Source: Deltaproteobacteria bacterium (GTDB lineage Bacteria; Desulfobacterota; DSM-4660; Desulfatiglandales; Desulfatiglandaceae). From it: a DNA stretch of 64,000 nt. The position numbers and the translations under genes were made by a program. Below, in pieces: positions 17,699 through 24,926 of this stretch. The DNA is taken from the NCBI GenBank assembly GCA_029933075.1, contig JAOZOW010000003.1, positions 1 through 64,000 on the forward strand, written 5' to 3'. The notes below the pieces were generated by a model. The model had not been told where the DNA came from. It worked only from the letters and a program-made list of their open reading frames with translations, and did not search any database. Position 1 is the stretch's first letter. Each line of letters opens with the position of its first letter.

Positions 17699-18808
17699 AT
17701 GGCGGGAATACCGGATAAAATTCAAACGTGGCAAATGGTACAACCCACTTCCAAGGACAAGGAATCGGGAGAGGTCATCCCTGGAAAAATCGAGAAAACC
17801 GAAATCCCTGTCCCCGAACTCAAACCGGGGGAGGTCCTTGTGGAGATCGCCGGCTGCGGGGTGTGCCATACAGACCTGGGATATTTCTACGATGGAGTGC
17901 CCACGGTCTCTAAACCTCCACTTACTCTTGGCCACGAAATATCAGGAACAGTAGTGGCCGGGGATGAAGCATGGATCGGCAAAGAGGTGATCGTGCCTGC
18001 GGTCATGCCATGCAGGCAGTGTCTGCTGTGCAAGACCGGCAGAGGCAATAGATGCCTCAACCAGAAAATGCCGGGCAACAGCCTGGGGATTTACGGCGGT
18101 TTTTCAAGCCATATCCCGGTGCCGAGCATTGATCTTTGCGAGGTGAAGGACAGGGGGGACACTCCTCTCGCCCATCTGGCCGTGGTGGCAGACGCCGGCA
18201 CTACTCCGTACCAGGCTGCCAAGAGAGCGGATCTACAACCCGGTGACAACGTGGTTGTCATAGGAATCACAGGGGGCGTGGGCCAGTATATGGGCCAGGT
18301 GGCCAAAGCCCTTGGCGCCCGGACAGTGGTAGGCATTGCTCGAAATCAGGAAAAGCTGGAAAGGGCTCTGAATTACGGCGCCGATTTCGTGATCAACTCC
18401 ACGGATAAGGACGCAAAAACGGTGTCAAAGGAATTCAGAGGCCTGTGCAAAGAAAAGGGCCTGCCCAATTTCGGGTGGAAGATCTTCGAAGTGACAGGGG
18501 CCAAGGCCGGACAGGAAATCGGTCTCGCCCTTCTGGGCTTTGTGGGGAAGATGATTGTTGTGGGCTTCAGCCTTGCCAAAACCGAATACGCCATTGGCCG
18601 ACTGATGGCGTTTGACGCGGAGATTATCGGTACCTGGGGGTGTCTCCCTGAATACTACCCCGCGGTTCTGGACATGGTGCTCACCGGGAAAATACAGATA
18701 GCCCCCTTTGTGGAAACCCGGCCCATGAGCAGCATTGTAGAAACCTTTGAAGAGGTGCACAAGGCTGGGTCCCCGGCCAAGAGAATAGTTCTTACGCCGG
18801 ACTTCTGA
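17699..18808 (+). CDS. had: 6-hydroxycyclohex-1-ene-1-carbonyl-CoA dehydrogenase
   Basis: Zinc-type medium-chain alcohol dehydrogenase that oxidises 6-hydroxycyclohex-1-ene-1-carbonyl-CoA to the 6-oxo compound in anaerobic benzoate breakdown. In 369 residues: catalytic zinc segment GCGVCHTD (52-59), GHE (78-80), structural zinc cysteines 105, 108, 111 and 119, and the cofactor fold GITGGVGQYMGQVAKALGA. Overall sequence matches the Had/BamQ group rather than generic alcohol dehydrogenases. AGGAGG precedes the ATG. It lies 60 bases after the SDR and 104 bases before oah. Confidence 0.93.
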   Translation: MAGIPDKIQTWQMVQPTSKDKESGEVIPGKIEKTEIPVPELKPGEVLVEIAGCGVCHTDLGYFYDGVPTVSKPPLTLGHEISGTVVAGDEAWIGKEVIVPAVMPCRQCLLCKTGRGNRCLNQKMPGNSLGIYGGFSSHIPVPSIDLCEVKDRGDTPLAHLAVVADAGTTPYQAAKRADLQPGDNVVVIGITGGVGQYMGQVAKALGARTVVGIARNQEKLERALNYGADFVINSTDKDAKTVSKEFRGLCKEKGLPNFGWKIFEVTGAKAGQEIGLALLGFVGKMIVVGFSLAKTEYAIGRLMAFDAEIIGTWGCLPEYYPAVLDMVLTGKIQIAPFVETRPMSSIVETFEEVHKAGSPAKRIVLTPDF

Positions 18809-18912
18809 GACCAACGCTTTTTTAGGGGCCATATTAACGGCCTTGCTTTCAAGACAGCTGATTTTTGAAATCAGAGTAAAAAAATTAAATACCATATAAA
18901 AGGAGGGAAACT

Positions 18913-20055
18913 ATGTCTTTAGAATGGATACCAAGGGACAATGAAATAAAGGACCATTCACTCCATACCGATGTTCATTGGGGTACCGATGCGGATGCGC
19001 CCTGCGTGGTCTTCGAAAAACGGCCCCTCAAAGATCCCGCGGGTAACACTGTGGAGGGGTTGTATGTCTCATGGATTCGTCTCAACAATCCAAGACAGTA
19101 CAACTCATATACCACAGAGATGGTGAAAGGCGTGATTGCCGCCTTCCAGAACTCTTCATTAGACAGGAGCGTAGTTGCTGTGGTGTTCACGGGCACGGGC
19201 CCTTTTGCCTTCTGCACAGGCGGCAACACCAAGGAATACAGCGAATTCTACAGCCTGAGATGTGACGAGTACGGGCAGTATATGGAGCTGTTCAATGGTA
19301 TGGTGGACTCCATTCTCATGTGCAAAAAACCTACCATATGCAGGGTCAATGGCATGAGGGTGGCAGGGGGCCAGGAGATTGGAATGGCCTGTGATCTTGC
19401 TATCGCATCGGACCTGGCTATCTTTGGACAGGCAGGTCCCAGGCATGGTTCTGCCCCTGACGGTGGCTCTTCCGATTTTCTCCCTTGGTACCTCAGCATT
19501 GAGGACGCCATGTGGAATTGCGTGTCCTGCGAAATGTGGTCGGCTTACAAGATGAAGGCCAAGTGCCTAATCAGCAAGGTAGTGCCTGTCCTGAAGGTAG
19601 ATGGCAAATGGGTCCGCAACCCCATGGTTATTACTGACAGGTATGTGGAGGACGGCGAAATAGTGTATGGCGAGTACAAGACCGGAGACGAACTCAAAGA
19701 AGCTCGGGCGTTCGTCAAAGAACATCAACCCAATGCCGATTTTGAATTGCTTGACAAGGAAGTGGACAAAATCGTGTGGACCTTTGCCAACCTGTTTCCC
19801 GGTTGCCTAATAAAATCCATAGATGGTATTCGGCAGAAAAAGAAGTTTTTCTGGGACGTCATGAAAAACGCCAACAGGCACTGGCTTGCGGCCAATATGT
19901 CTGGCGAGGCCTTCCTCGGCTTCGGCGCATTTAACACCAAAAAGATTACAGGCCAGGATGTCATAGACTTCATCAAGTTCCGCCAGAACATCGCCCAGTG
20001 CCGGACCTGGGATATGGATATGTTTGCGGAAGTCCTCGGAAAGCCAAAAGAGTAG
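18913..20055 (+). CDS. oah: 6-oxocyclohex-1-ene-1-carbonyl-CoA hydrolase (BamA)
   Basis: Ring-opening hydrolase of the crotonase superfamily that adds two waters and cleaves 6-oxocyclohex-1-ene-1-carbonyl-CoA to 3-hydroxypimeloyl-CoA; bamA is the standard marker gene of anaerobic aromatic degraders. The 380 residues include the crotonase oxyanion segment FCTGGNTKEYSEFYS, the GGQEIGMACDLAIASD motif and FGQAGPRHGSAPDGGSSDF, all typical of Oah. AGGAGGG precedes the ATG. A perfect terminator-like hairpin follows at 20083-20121. Confidence 0.95.
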   Translation: MSLEWIPRDNEIKDHSLHTDVHWGTDADAPCVVFEKRPLKDPAGNTVEGLYVSWIRLNNPRQYNSYTTEMVKGVIAAFQNSSLDRSVVAVVFTGTGPFAFCTGGNTKEYSEFYSLRCDEYGQYMELFNGMVDSILMCKKPTICRVNGMRVAGGQEIGMACDLAIASDLAIFGQAGPRHGSAPDGGSSDFLPWYLSIEDAMWNCVSCEMWSAYKMKAKCLISKVVPVLKVDGKWVRNPMVITDRYVEDGEIVYGEYKTGDELKEARAFVKEHQPNADFELLDKEVDKIVWTFANLFPGCLIKSIDGIRQKKKFFWDVMKNANRHWLAANMSGEAFLGFGAFNTKKITGQDVIDFIKFRQNIAQCRTWDMDMFAEVLGKPKE

Positions 20056-20082
20056 GGATGCACTCATAGGCTTCGAAGATGG

Positions 20083-20125
20083 AACGGCAGGCGGGGAGCG
20101 AGGATGATACCGCCTGCCGTTTTTG
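20083..20125 (+). terminator. Rho-independent terminator between oah and dch
   Basis: AACGGCAGGCGG (20083-20094) pairs perfectly with CCGCCTGCCGTT (20110-20121), loop 15 bases, followed by TTTGTTTTG. The stem is GC-rich with a T-run, so it should end or attenuate most transcripts from the SDR-had-oah unit before dch. Confidence 0.75.
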
Positions 20126-20228
20126 TTTTGCCTTCCCAAAAAAGCGGCATCGCAAGCCCTGAAAAACCGGGCCCCCAAAGAGCGATCGGTGACCACAGCG
20201 GGGCTCTGAAAGAAAGGAGGTTAGAATC

Positions 20229-20996
20229 ATGAATTACCAGCATATCGAGACCAAGTTTGAAGATGGACTGGGTACCATTACCCTCAACAGGCCGCCTGTG
20301 AATATCTTGAACATAGCTATGATGGAAGAAATCATTCGCGCTCTCAAGGCATGGCAAGAGAGTCGCGAGCTGAAGGTGGTGCTTTTCGACGCAAAAGGCA
20401 AGTGCTTTTCAGCAGGGGTGGACGTGGGGGAACATATGGGCGACCTCGCCCCGAAGATGATCCAGGTCTTTCATGGAATCTTCCGGCAGATGGATAAACT
20501 GGACGTTCCGACAGCCGCCTCTGTCTACGGCTCCTGCCTGGGCGGGGGATGCGAGCTGGCCGTCTTTTGCGATCTCGTGATTGCTTCTGACACAGCCAAG
20601 TTTGGGCAGCCCGAGATACAGGTTGGAGTCTTCCCACCCATCGCCGCTCAGATCATGCCCCGCATCATCGGTCGAAAAGCAGCCATGGAGCTGATATTGT
20701 CCGGGAAGATTATTTCCGCGAAAGAGGCGTACCAGATTGGTCTAATAAACAAAGTGGTCCCCCAGGAGGGATTGGATTCTGCTACTTATGAGTTTGTGAG
20801 ACCCTATCTTGGGCTGAGTGCCGAGGTCCTGAGGAAGACAAAAAAGGCGATCAATGCAGGGCTTCGCGACGAGCTGGAGCCCTCTCTTAAAATCATTGAG
20901 GATATCTACCTCGGTGAGCTCATGAAAACCCATGATGCCAACGAAGGATTGAATGCCTTTCTGGAGAAAAGAAAGCCGCAGTGGAAAAATGAATAG
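20229..20996 (+). CDS. dch: Cyclohexa-1,5-diene-1-carbonyl-CoA hydratase
   Basis: Crotonase-family hydratase that adds water to cyclohexa-1,5-diene-1-carbonyl-CoA, the product of dearomatising benzoyl-CoA reductase, to give the substrate of Had. In 255 residues: the SAGVDVGEHMGD segment, SVYGSCLGGGCELAVFCDLV and the FGQPEIQVGVFPP region, which match Dch/BamR better than ordinary enoyl-CoA hydratases. A GGAGG site precedes the ATG. A generic enoyl-CoA hydratase is the alternative, but the had-oah neighbours make Dch likely. The dearomatising reductase itself is not in this window. Confidence 0.92.
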   Translation: MNYQHIETKFEDGLGTITLNRPPVNILNIAMMEEIIRALKAWQESRELKVVLFDAKGKCFSAGVDVGEHMGDLAPKMIQVFHGIFRQMDKLDVPTAASVYGSCLGGGCELAVFCDLVIASDTAKFGQPEIQVGVFPPIAAQIMPRIIGRKAAMELILSGKIISAKEAYQIGLINKVVPQEGLDSATYEFVRPYLGLSAEVLRKTKKAINAGLRDELEPSLKIIEDIYLGELMKTHDANEGLNAFLEKRKPQWKNE

Positions 20997-21279: not shown

Positions 21280-22422
21280 ATGACAGCAAATGAGATACTG
21301 GACATGCTGCTTGCAACCCTTAAGACCACTGGATTGTATAACTTCCAGTGGAACATTGTGATCATGTGGGGTGTAGGCGCCTTTTTTATATATTTAGCCA
21401 TTGCAAAAAAATATGAACCCCTCCTGCTCCTGCCCATCGGTTTCGGAATCTTCATCGTAAACTTTCCCCTGGTACCCCTGATGGGTCATTCCCACGGTCA
21501 TGCCCAACTTCTTCGGGTATTCTACCACTACGGCCTGGAATGGGAGGTCATTCCCTGCATCATATTCCTTGGCCTGGGCGCCATGACCGACTTCGGACCC
21601 CTTATTGCAAATCCAAAAACCCTGCTCATCGGGGCCGGAGCCCAGTTAGGCGTCTTCATTACTTTTACGGGTACGGTCCTTGCCGGCTTTACACTCAAAG
21701 AGGCGGCTTCTGTGGGCATTATCGGCGGGGCCGACGGGCCCACCACCATTTACCTGACGCAGCACCTGGCGCCCCAGCTCCTCGGGGCAAACGCCCTTGC
21801 CGCCTATTCCTATATGGCAATGGTCCCGCTTATTCAGCCACCCATCATGAAACTCATGACCACAGAGGCTGAAAGAAAGATCCGCATGCGCCAGCTGAGA
21901 CCGGTATCCAGGCATGAAAAGATCTTGTTTCCCTTGGTCACGGCTGGCATTATCGCCCTTCTGGTGCCTTCTGTGATTCCTCTGATGGGCATGTTTATGC
22001 TTGGAAATTTGATGAAGGAAAGCGGTGTAGTGGGCAGGCTGACGGAAAGCGCTCAAGGATCCCTTATGAACATCGTTACAATTTTTCTCGGCATATCGGT
22101 GGGAGCCACCATGCATGCCGATAAGTTCCTCAGCTGGAAGCCGCTTTTTATCTTCGGTCTCGGACTCATCGACTTCGCGGTCTGCACCGTGGGCGGCATT
22201 CTCACCGTTAAAATCATGAACCTTTTTCTCAAAGAAAAAATCAACCCTTTGATCGGATCGGCAGGCGTCTCGGCGGTGCCTATGGCCGCCCGCGTGTCTC
22301 AGGTGGAGGGGATGAAATATGACAGGAGCAATTACCTCTTAATGCACGCCATGGGGCCGAACCTTGCGGGTGTGATCGGCTCGGCAGCAGCAGCAGGGAT
22401 GTTCATTGCTATGTTCGATTAA
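21280..22422 (+). CDS. Sodium ion-translocating decarboxylase, beta subunit
   Basis: Membrane subunit (GcdB/MmdB/OadB family) that decarboxylates carboxybiotin and pumps Na+ across the inner membrane. The 380-residue, roughly nine- to ten-helix protein contains GGADGPT (149-155), with Asp152 corresponding to the essential aspartate of the Klebsiella OadB, the [17 protein letters not shown] segment and the C-terminal [14 protein letters not shown] motif. It follows the benzoyl-CoA lower-pathway genes and precedes a small-subunit-like fusion protein; the alpha and biotin subunits face it on the minus strand. The physiological substrate (glutaconyl-CoA, methylmalonyl-CoA) is set by alpha, not by this gene. 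Confidence 0.94.
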
Positions 22423-22528
22423 CCTTGACTTGAACTTGAAGTCCAGGGCCCTTGCTGAACAAAATGCCAAACTTTCTCAAATAACATAGAGGTCTTTGAA
22501 ACTCCTTTTCCAGGAAGAGGATGACGAT

Positions 22529-23008
22529 ATGAAAAAACATATGCGGGGAGGGCTTTTTTGTTTGTTACTGTGGTTATTGCTCTCCGGCCCCTCCGGAGCG
22601 GAGGATTTCCTTGGCGCGCCCGTTATCCCCGGGGCCATGCCCCTTATAAAAACCGATGCCCGGCTCGAGCTGCAGACCAATCTGAGGCATGACGAAGTGG
22701 TGCGTTTCTACAAGGAAGCACTGAAAGGCCTTCCAGACATCCGGTATCGTGAATGGAAAGAGGCCACCTACATCGAGGACGACGGTAAAAAGCCCTGGCA
22801 TTCCATTACCATTTCAAAAGGAGCTGGATCGCAGACAACGGTCATTATCGTAAAGGATAATTGGACTTGGATCATCGGGACCCTGCTGCTCAGATTCGTG
22901 GGGGTATTCGTGGTCTTGATGGTCCTGTTCATTGGTCTTGCAGTATCCGGAAAGATCATCTCCCGCGTGGTAAAAAGGATGGCTGCGGATGAACCACCCG
23001 GCAGTTAG
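22529..23008 (+). CDS. Unknown periplasmic domain fused to an OadG/GcdD-like membrane anchor; probable small decarboxylase subunit
   Basis: The 159-residue product has a clear signal peptide (about 1-24, ending SGPSGAED), a periplasmic alpha/beta-looking domain (about 27-110, with VVRFYKEALKGLPDIRY and a strand-rich ITISKGAGSQTTVIIVKD), then one membrane helix (about 113-140) and a short basic tail GKIISRVVKR. The helix-tail pattern resembles OadG/MmdD/GcdD small subunits of Na+ decarboxylases, and the gene directly follows the beta subunit. Canonical small subunits have no signal peptide or periplasmic domain, so this would be a new architecture. ATG 22529 has a good AGGAAGAGG site; an upstream start at 22496 is less likely. 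Assignment is inference. Confidence 0.6.
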   Translation: MKKHMRGGLFCLLLWLLLSGPSGAEDFLGAPVIPGAMPLIKTDARLELQTNLRHDEVVRFYKEALKGLPDIRYREWKEATYIEDDGKKPWHSITISKGAGSQTTVIIVKDNWTWIIGTLLLRFVGVFVVLMVLFIGLAVSGKIISRVVKRMAADEPPGS

Positions 23009-23029: not shown

Positions 23030-23070
23030 AAAAAGCCTTGTTGTTTTGTGTGGAAACAACAAGGCTTTTT
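23030..23070. terminator. Bidirectional terminator between convergent decarboxylase units
   Basis: AAAAAGCCTTGTTGTTT (23030-23046) and its perfect complement at 23054-23070 form a 17-bp stem with a 7-base loop. A-runs on one side and T-runs on the other make it an efficient terminator in both directions, separating the plus-strand beta/fusion genes from the minus-strand carboxyltransferase. Confidence 0.85.
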
Positions 23071-23111: not shown

Positions 23112-24662
23112 TTAAAGAGGGATATTCCCGTGTCTCCTTTCAGGGATCGACGTCCTTTTCCCCTGAAGCATCATAAGTGCACTAATCAGTCTGGGTCGCG
23201 TCTCCTGGGGAAATATTACATGGTCAATGTAACCGAATTCCGCAGCTCGGAAAGGGCTGGCGAAGTTCTTCCTGTACTCCTCGACAAGCCCTGCCCGGGT
23301 GGTCTCAGGATCGTCCGATTCTGCGATCTCCTTTTTGAAGATGATATTGGCCGCACCCTCGGGCCCCATGACCGCAATTTCCGCAGTGGGGTAGGCATAA
23401 TTGATATCCGCAGCAAGATGCTTCCCGCTCATGGCGATATAGGCACCGCCATATGCCTTCCTGGTGATCACGGTGATTTTCGGAACCGTAGCCTCTGAAT
23501 AGGAATAGATAATCTTGGCCCCATGCTTGATGATCCCGCCATACTCCTGATTGACGCCTGGCAGGTATCCGGGCACGTCTACGAATGTGACCAGAGGGAT
23601 ATTAAAGGAGTCACACATTCTGACGAATCTCGCGCATTTCATTGAGGCGTCGATATCGAGGCAACCCGCAAGCATCCTCGGCTGATTGGCCACAATGCCA
23701 ACGGCATATCCATTCAAACGTCCAAGACCGACCACCATGTTCTTCGCGTAATGCTGGTGTACTTCCAGAAATTTATTATTATCCAGCACTGTGCGGATAA
23801 TGTCTTTCATGTCGTAGGGCAGTCTCGGATTGTCGGGCACTGCTTTGTTCAGAGACATGTCCTGCCGATCGGGGTCGTCAGTGCATTCAACCACAGGGGG
23901 GCGCTCCCGATAATTCTGAGGGAAGTAGCTCAGGATCTCTTTTACTCTGTCAAGAGCTGCCTTATCAGATTCCTCTGCAAAATGGGCGACTCCGCTTTTG
24001 GTATTATGGGTCATGGCGCCTCCCAGCTCTTCAGGGGTCACCTCTTCCGAGGTGACCGCCTTAATGACCTGAGGGCCTGTTATGAACATGTTACTGCTCT
24101 TCTTAACCATGATGGTAAGATCCGTGAGAGCGGGCGAATAAACAGCCCCGCCCGCACAAGGGCCCATAATAACCGAAATCTGCGGGACCACCCCGGAGCT
24201 CCAGACATTTCTCTTGAAGATCTCACCGTAGGCTGCCAGACTCCCAACACCCTCCTGTATCCGTGCCCCTCCCGAGTCGTTGAGGCCTACTACAGGGGCA
24301 CCGTTTTGAAGGGCCAGATCCATTATCTTGCAAACCTTTTCCCCGAAAGCGTGACTCAATGACCCGCCAAAAACCGTGAAGTCCTGAGAAAATAAAAATA
24401 CGAGCCTCCCGTTGATGGTGCCATAACCCGTGACCACACCATCTCCGGGAATCCTTTTCTTTTCCATGCCAAAATCATGACAGCGATGGAGTACAAATTT
24501 ATCAATCTCCTGGAAGCTGTCTTTGTCAAGGAGGTAGTCGATCCGCTCCCTTGCCGTCATCTTTCCCTTGGCGTGCTGCTGATCTATCCTCTTGGGGCCG
24601 CCCCCCAGTTCCGCCTCACGGTTTCGCTTCTCCACCTCCTTGAATCTATCATCCATTTCCAT
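23112..24662 (-). CDS. Acyl-CoA carboxyltransferase subunit (MmdA/PccB type), alpha subunit of the Na+ decarboxylase
   Basis: Transfers the carboxyl group between an acyl-CoA and biotin. In 516 residues it has both crotonase-like halves, with [14 protein letters not shown] and [14 protein letters not shown] in the first and [22 protein letters not shown] and [11 protein letters not shown] in the second. Length and motifs are those of methylmalonyl-CoA decarboxylase alpha or propionyl-CoA carboxylase beta. Typical glutaconyl-CoA carboxyltransferases (GcdA) are longer. With the adjacent 70-residue biotin carrier and the facing beta subunit it probably forms a membrane decarboxylase; no biotin carboxylase gene is nearby, which argues against a carboxylase. 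Confidence 0.9.
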
Positions 24663-24713: not shown

Positions 24714-24926
24714 TCAGTCGAGTACCACCAGCACAGCGTCCGCTTCCACCGCATCTCCCTGGCTGCATTTCACCTCCTTTACGGTCCCGGATACTTCCGA
24801 AACCACCGGCAGCTCCATCTTCATGGCCTCAAGAATAACGACCTCATCGCCTTCATTCACAGTATCACCCACTTTGACCTTAACATCCAGTATCTTCCCC
24901 CCCATGGGAGCCTTGATCTCACTCAC
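24714..24926 (-). CDS. Biotin carrier (biotinyl domain) protein of the decarboxylase
   Basis: A 70-residue stand-alone biotinyl/lipoyl-fold protein with the biotinylation motif EAMKM; Lys36 would carry biotin that shuttles the carboxyl group from the carboxyltransferase to the membrane beta subunit. It lacks the alanine/proline-rich linker commonly found in front of this domain in decarboxylase gamma subunits. GGAGGG precedes the ATG. It is transcribed with the carboxyltransferase, 51 bases upstream of it, from a promoter at 25080-25107. Confidence 0.93.
   Translation of the reverse strand: MSEIKAPMGGKILDVKVKVGDTVNEGDEVVILEAMKMELPVVSEVSGTVKEVKCSQGDAVEADAVLVVLD

Follow-up and report, generated by a model that had tools for sequence, protein, structure and literature searches.

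The 64,000-nucleotide stretch of DNA analysed here (the window) contains the genes of a decarboxylase Na+ pump; its contig measures 85.6 kb and belongs to a draft genome of 2.99 Mb that is 94% complete. It raises the question of what is the protein, hereafter X, that is encoded directly downstream of the beta subunit and carries an exported domain. The best explanation of the data as a whole, with a probability of roughly 0.85, is that X is the OadG gamma/GcdD delta-type small subunit of this Na+-translocating biotin decarboxylase.

The alpha, biotin carrier and beta genes expected of a Na+-translocating glutaconyl-CoA decarboxylase are all present at the locus. The beta subunit (GcdB/OadB type; 21280-22422, + strand), the carboxybiotin decarboxylase and Na+ transporter, matches PF03977 at 1e-151 and scores above the TIGR01109 cut-off. 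The alpha subunit, a carboxyltransferase of the GcdA/MmdA type (23112-24662, - strand), matches PF01039 at 7e-200 and TIGR01117 with 836 bits, short of the cut-off of 998.8. The biotin carrier (24714-24926, - strand), which matches biotin carrier families, is 70 amino acids long and consists of the biotin domain alone; it has neither the N-terminal region nor the Ala/Pro linker of Clostridium symbiosum GcdC (PMC7145394), and no anchor region. Where this short carrier adjoins X, it is conserved at ~70-84% identity in most of the loci. The alpha and biotin carrier genes converge on X (+ strand), and an inverted repeat of 17 bp, perfect and A/T-rich at its ends (23030-23070), located between X and alpha, is probably a bidirectional terminator. 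Upstream of beta lie benzoyl-CoA pathway genes (17699-20996, + strand): had (17699-18808) and oah (18913-20055), above the cut-offs of TIGR03201 and TIGR03200, respectively, and a dienoyl-CoA hydratase-like gene (20229-20996), for which TIGR03189 is the best match, below its cut-off. Given these genes, glutaconyl-CoA is the likely substrate, and the gene context makes the pump most likely the glutaconyl-CoA decarboxylase of the benzoyl-CoA pathway.

The X gene (22529-23008, + strand) encodes 159 amino acids, from an ATG at 22529 to a stop at 23006-23008. It starts 106 nt after the beta stop and is preceded by a Shine-Dalgarno-like AGGAAGAGG at 22512-22520. The preliminary description of this DNA had proposed a signal peptide and a periplasmic domain of ~85 residues, followed by one C-terminal helix that bears a short basic tail, and this layout is borne out by the sequence, the AlphaFold2 model and the homologues. 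The latter retain it in full at 40-68% identity, which indicates that X is a real gene. The signal peptide covers residues 1-24, according to both sequence and model, with cleavage probably after SGA (22-24). It is followed by a periplasmic alpha/beta domain (residues 25-109; 22601-22855) and by an OadG-like segment (residues 110-145; 22856-22963; DNWTW...RFVGVFVVL...SGKI), assigned by hhalign and reciprocal HMM ranking, with a transmembrane helix at ~112-145. The AlphaFold2 model, calculated with an alignment of 44 homologues, has a mean pLDDT of 89.8 and comprises an N-terminal helix (5-18), strands and a helix arranged as bb-a-bbbb (37-109), and a single continuous helix (112-153), hydrophobic at ~114-137 and followed by a few polar residues. 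The C-terminal region is hence one helix, as had been described, but a longer one than a plain membrane anchor. The signal peptide and the basic C-terminus predict, in sequence and model alike, that the N-terminus is outside and the C-terminus inside, in agreement with the OadG-like orientation proposed earlier.

Conservation is unevenly distributed along X. Averaged over pairs of homologues, identity reaches 0.76 in the membrane core and 0.57 in the periplasmic domain, compared to 0.31 in the tail and 0.29 in the signal peptide. The periplasmic motifs YIEDD (81-85) and WHS (90-92) are near-invariant and a KDNWTW motif is kept at the membrane, from which it follows that the domain is under constraint. 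A fold search with this domain returned no match at E<=0.001; the top matches, Flpp3 and KA1 domains (E ~0.03), are too weak to be retained as its fold. A sequence search of the PDB with the X profile gave no match.

Several pieces of evidence support homology between the membrane helix of X and that of OadG. Of all Pfam families, PF04277 (OAD_gamma) matches the largest number of X homologues (27/44 at E<=1, best 1.2e-4), and in P0001 and the relatives displayed it is the C-terminal helix that gives this match. X alone reaches 13.4 bits, below the curated cut-off of 27. In six-frame searches, the X C-terminus is the best PF04277 match of the genome in 30 of the 38 X genomes, a count made by eye on related genomes that are not independent cases; it comes second to the short OadG of a second beta gene in G007, G034, G059 and probably G040. 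Aligned by hhalign with 32 OadGs, X residues 105-159 score 34.1 with no gap, as compared to 15-17 for reversed profiles and at most 29.2 for 200 block-shuffled profiles. The W-x13-VF pattern occurs in 44/44 X proteins, and a nearly equal spacing is found in ~12 of the 32 OadGs. Conversely, when an HMM of the last 55 residues of X is run against 11,409 ORFs of beta-centred loci, X-type proteins rank first and are followed, down to E ~0.2, almost only by OadGs adjoining beta genes. The closest relatives of the X helix by HMM are short OadG-like subunits encoded upstream of beta. These reciprocal profiles, together with the intermediates and the mutual exclusion described below, uphold the resemblance to OadG noted previously. 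The absence of a feature had been overlooked in the preliminary description: X ends a few residues past the helix and lacks the long amphipathic tail with which the C-terminus of OadG/GcdD binds alpha, a tail that is also missing from many short OadGs. Single-helix PF04277 scores can mislead, as L105 (genome G145) illustrates: this 5'-nucleotidase-like protein, whose C-terminus forms a helix, reaches 37 bits in a genome for which no OAD_beta is listed; the PF04277 cut-off may let unrelated single helices through.

The expected linkage of X to beta genes is found in the searched genome contigs: in all 44 loci where the beta sequence is in view, beta immediately precedes X on the same strand, at distances of 13-291 nt. 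No canonical OadG was found besides X in the 94%-complete draft, which answers the earlier concern that such a subunit might be encoded elsewhere; in relatives possessing X, an OadG above the Pfam cut-off occurs only where a second beta gene exists, and adjoins it. Among 133 distinct Desulfobacterota betas, a short OadG lies directly upstream of 78 and downstream of one; 47, that of the window included, are followed by a signal-peptide subunit, and seven have no small subunit by HMM. None has both an upstream OadG and a downstream X-type subunit. The set was partly collected by X searches, so that 78 and 47 are not to be read as frequencies, while the exclusion is independent of this sampling. 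The rule of one small-subunit gene per beta, adjoining it, thus holds for X.

A few loci depart from the simple arrangement. In G021, an X paralogue (L124:5795-6322) sits after a CitMHS-family permease with no beta, while the matching locus of G016 (L125:4793-8006) has CitMHS, then beta, then a second X; TatC-like and Na/Ca exchanger-type genes are found near the second X in both, and beta may have been lost from the G021 locus. In L039 (6400-12429), X and alpha are separated by an operon that encodes a carboxyltransferase and a biotin carboxylase; the 3' ends of X and alpha are duplicated at its flanks, as would result from an insertion with flank duplication. The second short X of this locus, considered as a canonical subunit, is a 3' remnant at the inserted operon. 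A natural beta-X fusion in G005 was discarded because the upstream portion of its 344-aa open frame is not in the beta reading frame, and G011, a candidate for a beta devoid of X, belongs to a contig that stops 145 bases past the beta match.

The origin of X can be followed in a beta tree built by a quick method, with SH-aLRT support and a midpoint root. The 47 betas with a downstream signal-peptide subunit form, with two betas scored as having none, a single clade (SH-aLRT 100) nested among betas with an upstream OadG. On inspection, these two (G061 and G135) have a downstream OadG without signal peptide, which the HMM survey had overlooked in L188. In the complete sister-lineage subunit (L188:3727-4233), 169 amino acids long, the helix is X-like (LAVRFFGVFIVL), the linker rich in Pro and the tail of the OadG type; this subunit is an intermediate between upstream OadG and X. 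In other relatives (G216, in L093/L126; G284, in L092), the small subunit combines a signal peptide and an unrelated periplasmic domain with a helix resembling that of X and a tail of the OadG type. The protein of G216 exceeds the PF04277 cut-off (32 bits), and its periplasmic domain of ~160 residues has a weak choice-of-anchor U match, below cut-off. In G095 (L094/L127), the periplasmic portion amounts to just ~35 residues. In the simplest story, the small-subunit gene would have moved once, in one beta lineage of anaerobic bacteria, from upstream to downstream of beta; an exported N-terminus (signal peptide and periplasmic domain) would then have been gained, except in the earliest branch, before the periplasmic domain was exchanged and, presumably last, the OadG tail was lost in the X branch. 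Altogether, the data support X as an OadG/GcdD small subunit in a form specific to this lineage.

Other readings of X have to be weighed against this one. X might be an unrelated membrane-anchored periplasmic protein, co-transcribed with beta and serving another process, whose likeness to OadG would come down to a single helix with basic ends. The sub-threshold Pfam score of X, the false positive L105 and the G021 paralogue without beta are all compatible with such a protein. It is nonetheless highly improbable, as the HMM of the X C-terminus picks OadGs among thousands of ORFs, the X-OadG register is ungapped, bridging proteins combine features of both, and X and upstream OadG exclude each other. 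Nearly as improbable is a role as chaperone or assembly factor, acting in insertion or trimerisation of beta without being a stoichiometric subunit. The position of X next to beta in nearly every locus and its lack of an alpha-binding tail would fit such a factor, but X replaces gamma, which in Salmonella is a stoichiometric part of the beta3-gamma3 complex (PMC7274780).

A more serious competitor, still unlikely, accepts X as an OadG homologue but makes it mainly a periplasmic adaptor, for a Na+-linked transporter or an envelope partner, or an ion sensor regulating the pump. The strong conservation of YIEDD, WHS and the juxtamembrane KDNWTW, the unrelated periplasmic modules that occupy the same slot in relatives, and the presence, in two genomes, of CitMHS and Na/Ca exchanger-type genes close to the second X speak for it. 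Conversely, no constant partner gene emerges besides beta and, often, biotin carrier and alpha, in a comparison that sought relatives of the window genes, and the differing domains in one slot argue against a single specific ligand. It is in the same way a tentative idea, with the odds against it, that in this pump lineage the small subunit has changed from a tether of alpha in the cytoplasm into a module on the periplasmic side, with exchange of unrelated domains, and that this module acts as a gate or sensor at the Na+ outlet or links the pump to partners in the envelope.

The preferred reading, X as the small subunit, can be placed on the structure of Salmonella oxaloacetate decarboxylase, in which the gamma helix lies against T4, T6 and T10 of beta and touches both its core and scaffold domains, while the gamma C-terminal tail binds alpha (PMC7274780). 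The X helix would occupy the same place and keep the core and scaffold domains together, with the periplasmic domain covering beta on its outer face, next to the Na+ exit, and most likely stabilising the beta-X assembly there. Since X keeps the helix and the orientation but has a short tail, and since the carrier is a biotin domain alone, X most likely holds beta together. With alpha-tethering lost from X, docking on beta is probably direct and transient, with no tether, for both alpha and the free 70-aa biotin carrier. AlphaFold2 was run on beta and X through a read-through fusion of the window DNA, in which TAAC was read as one step and TAG as Ser and the X alignment rows fell on X; with this shallow alignment beta was of low confidence and no contact was obtained.

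X combines familiar and novel features with respect to known small subunits. Like OadG (PF04277, TIGR01195), it has one membrane helix with the N-terminus outside and the C-terminus inside, next to beta, and a homologous VFxxL-type core. It differs from OadG by its signal peptide and periplasmic domain, by the position of its gene downstream of beta, by the absence of both the linker and the alpha-binding tail, and by scores under the family cut-offs. GcdD, the delta subunit of the glutaconyl-CoA decarboxylases of C. symbiosum and A. fermentans, likely belongs to the same enzyme and to the same slot of the complex; it is ~95 amino acids long, with an N-terminal helix, an Ala/Pro-rich region and a C-terminal region inside (PMC7145394), whereas the extra domain of X is outside. 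The short upstream OadG-like subunits of Desulfobacterota (~45-60 aa) share with X a membrane helix, a short basic tail and the lack of an alpha-binding tail, but have no signal peptide or periplasmic domain. Canonical small subunits of this phylum range from ~45 to 190 amino acids, a wider span than the 80-110 residues initially assumed. The G216 subunit resembles X in its position downstream of beta, its signal peptide and its helix, and differs by its larger, unrelated periplasmic domain and its OadG-type tail.

No description of a periplasmic domain on a decarboxylase small subunit was found in the open-access literature, most subscription journals lying outside this search. Lamin-tail fusions of OadG occur in Bacteroidota; a literature search for them returned nothing. 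The genome paper on the anaerobic aromatic degrader BzS1 names alpha, beta and biotin carrier genes and no small subunit (PMC13416013). A small subunit missing from such genome papers may be present but fall under the family cut-offs. The role known so far for the small subunit of decarboxylase Na+ pumps is to tether the cytoplasmic enzyme; if in one clade the tether has indeed been lost and a conserved periplasmic domain acquired, the outer face of the pump would have a function that seemingly nobody has sought.
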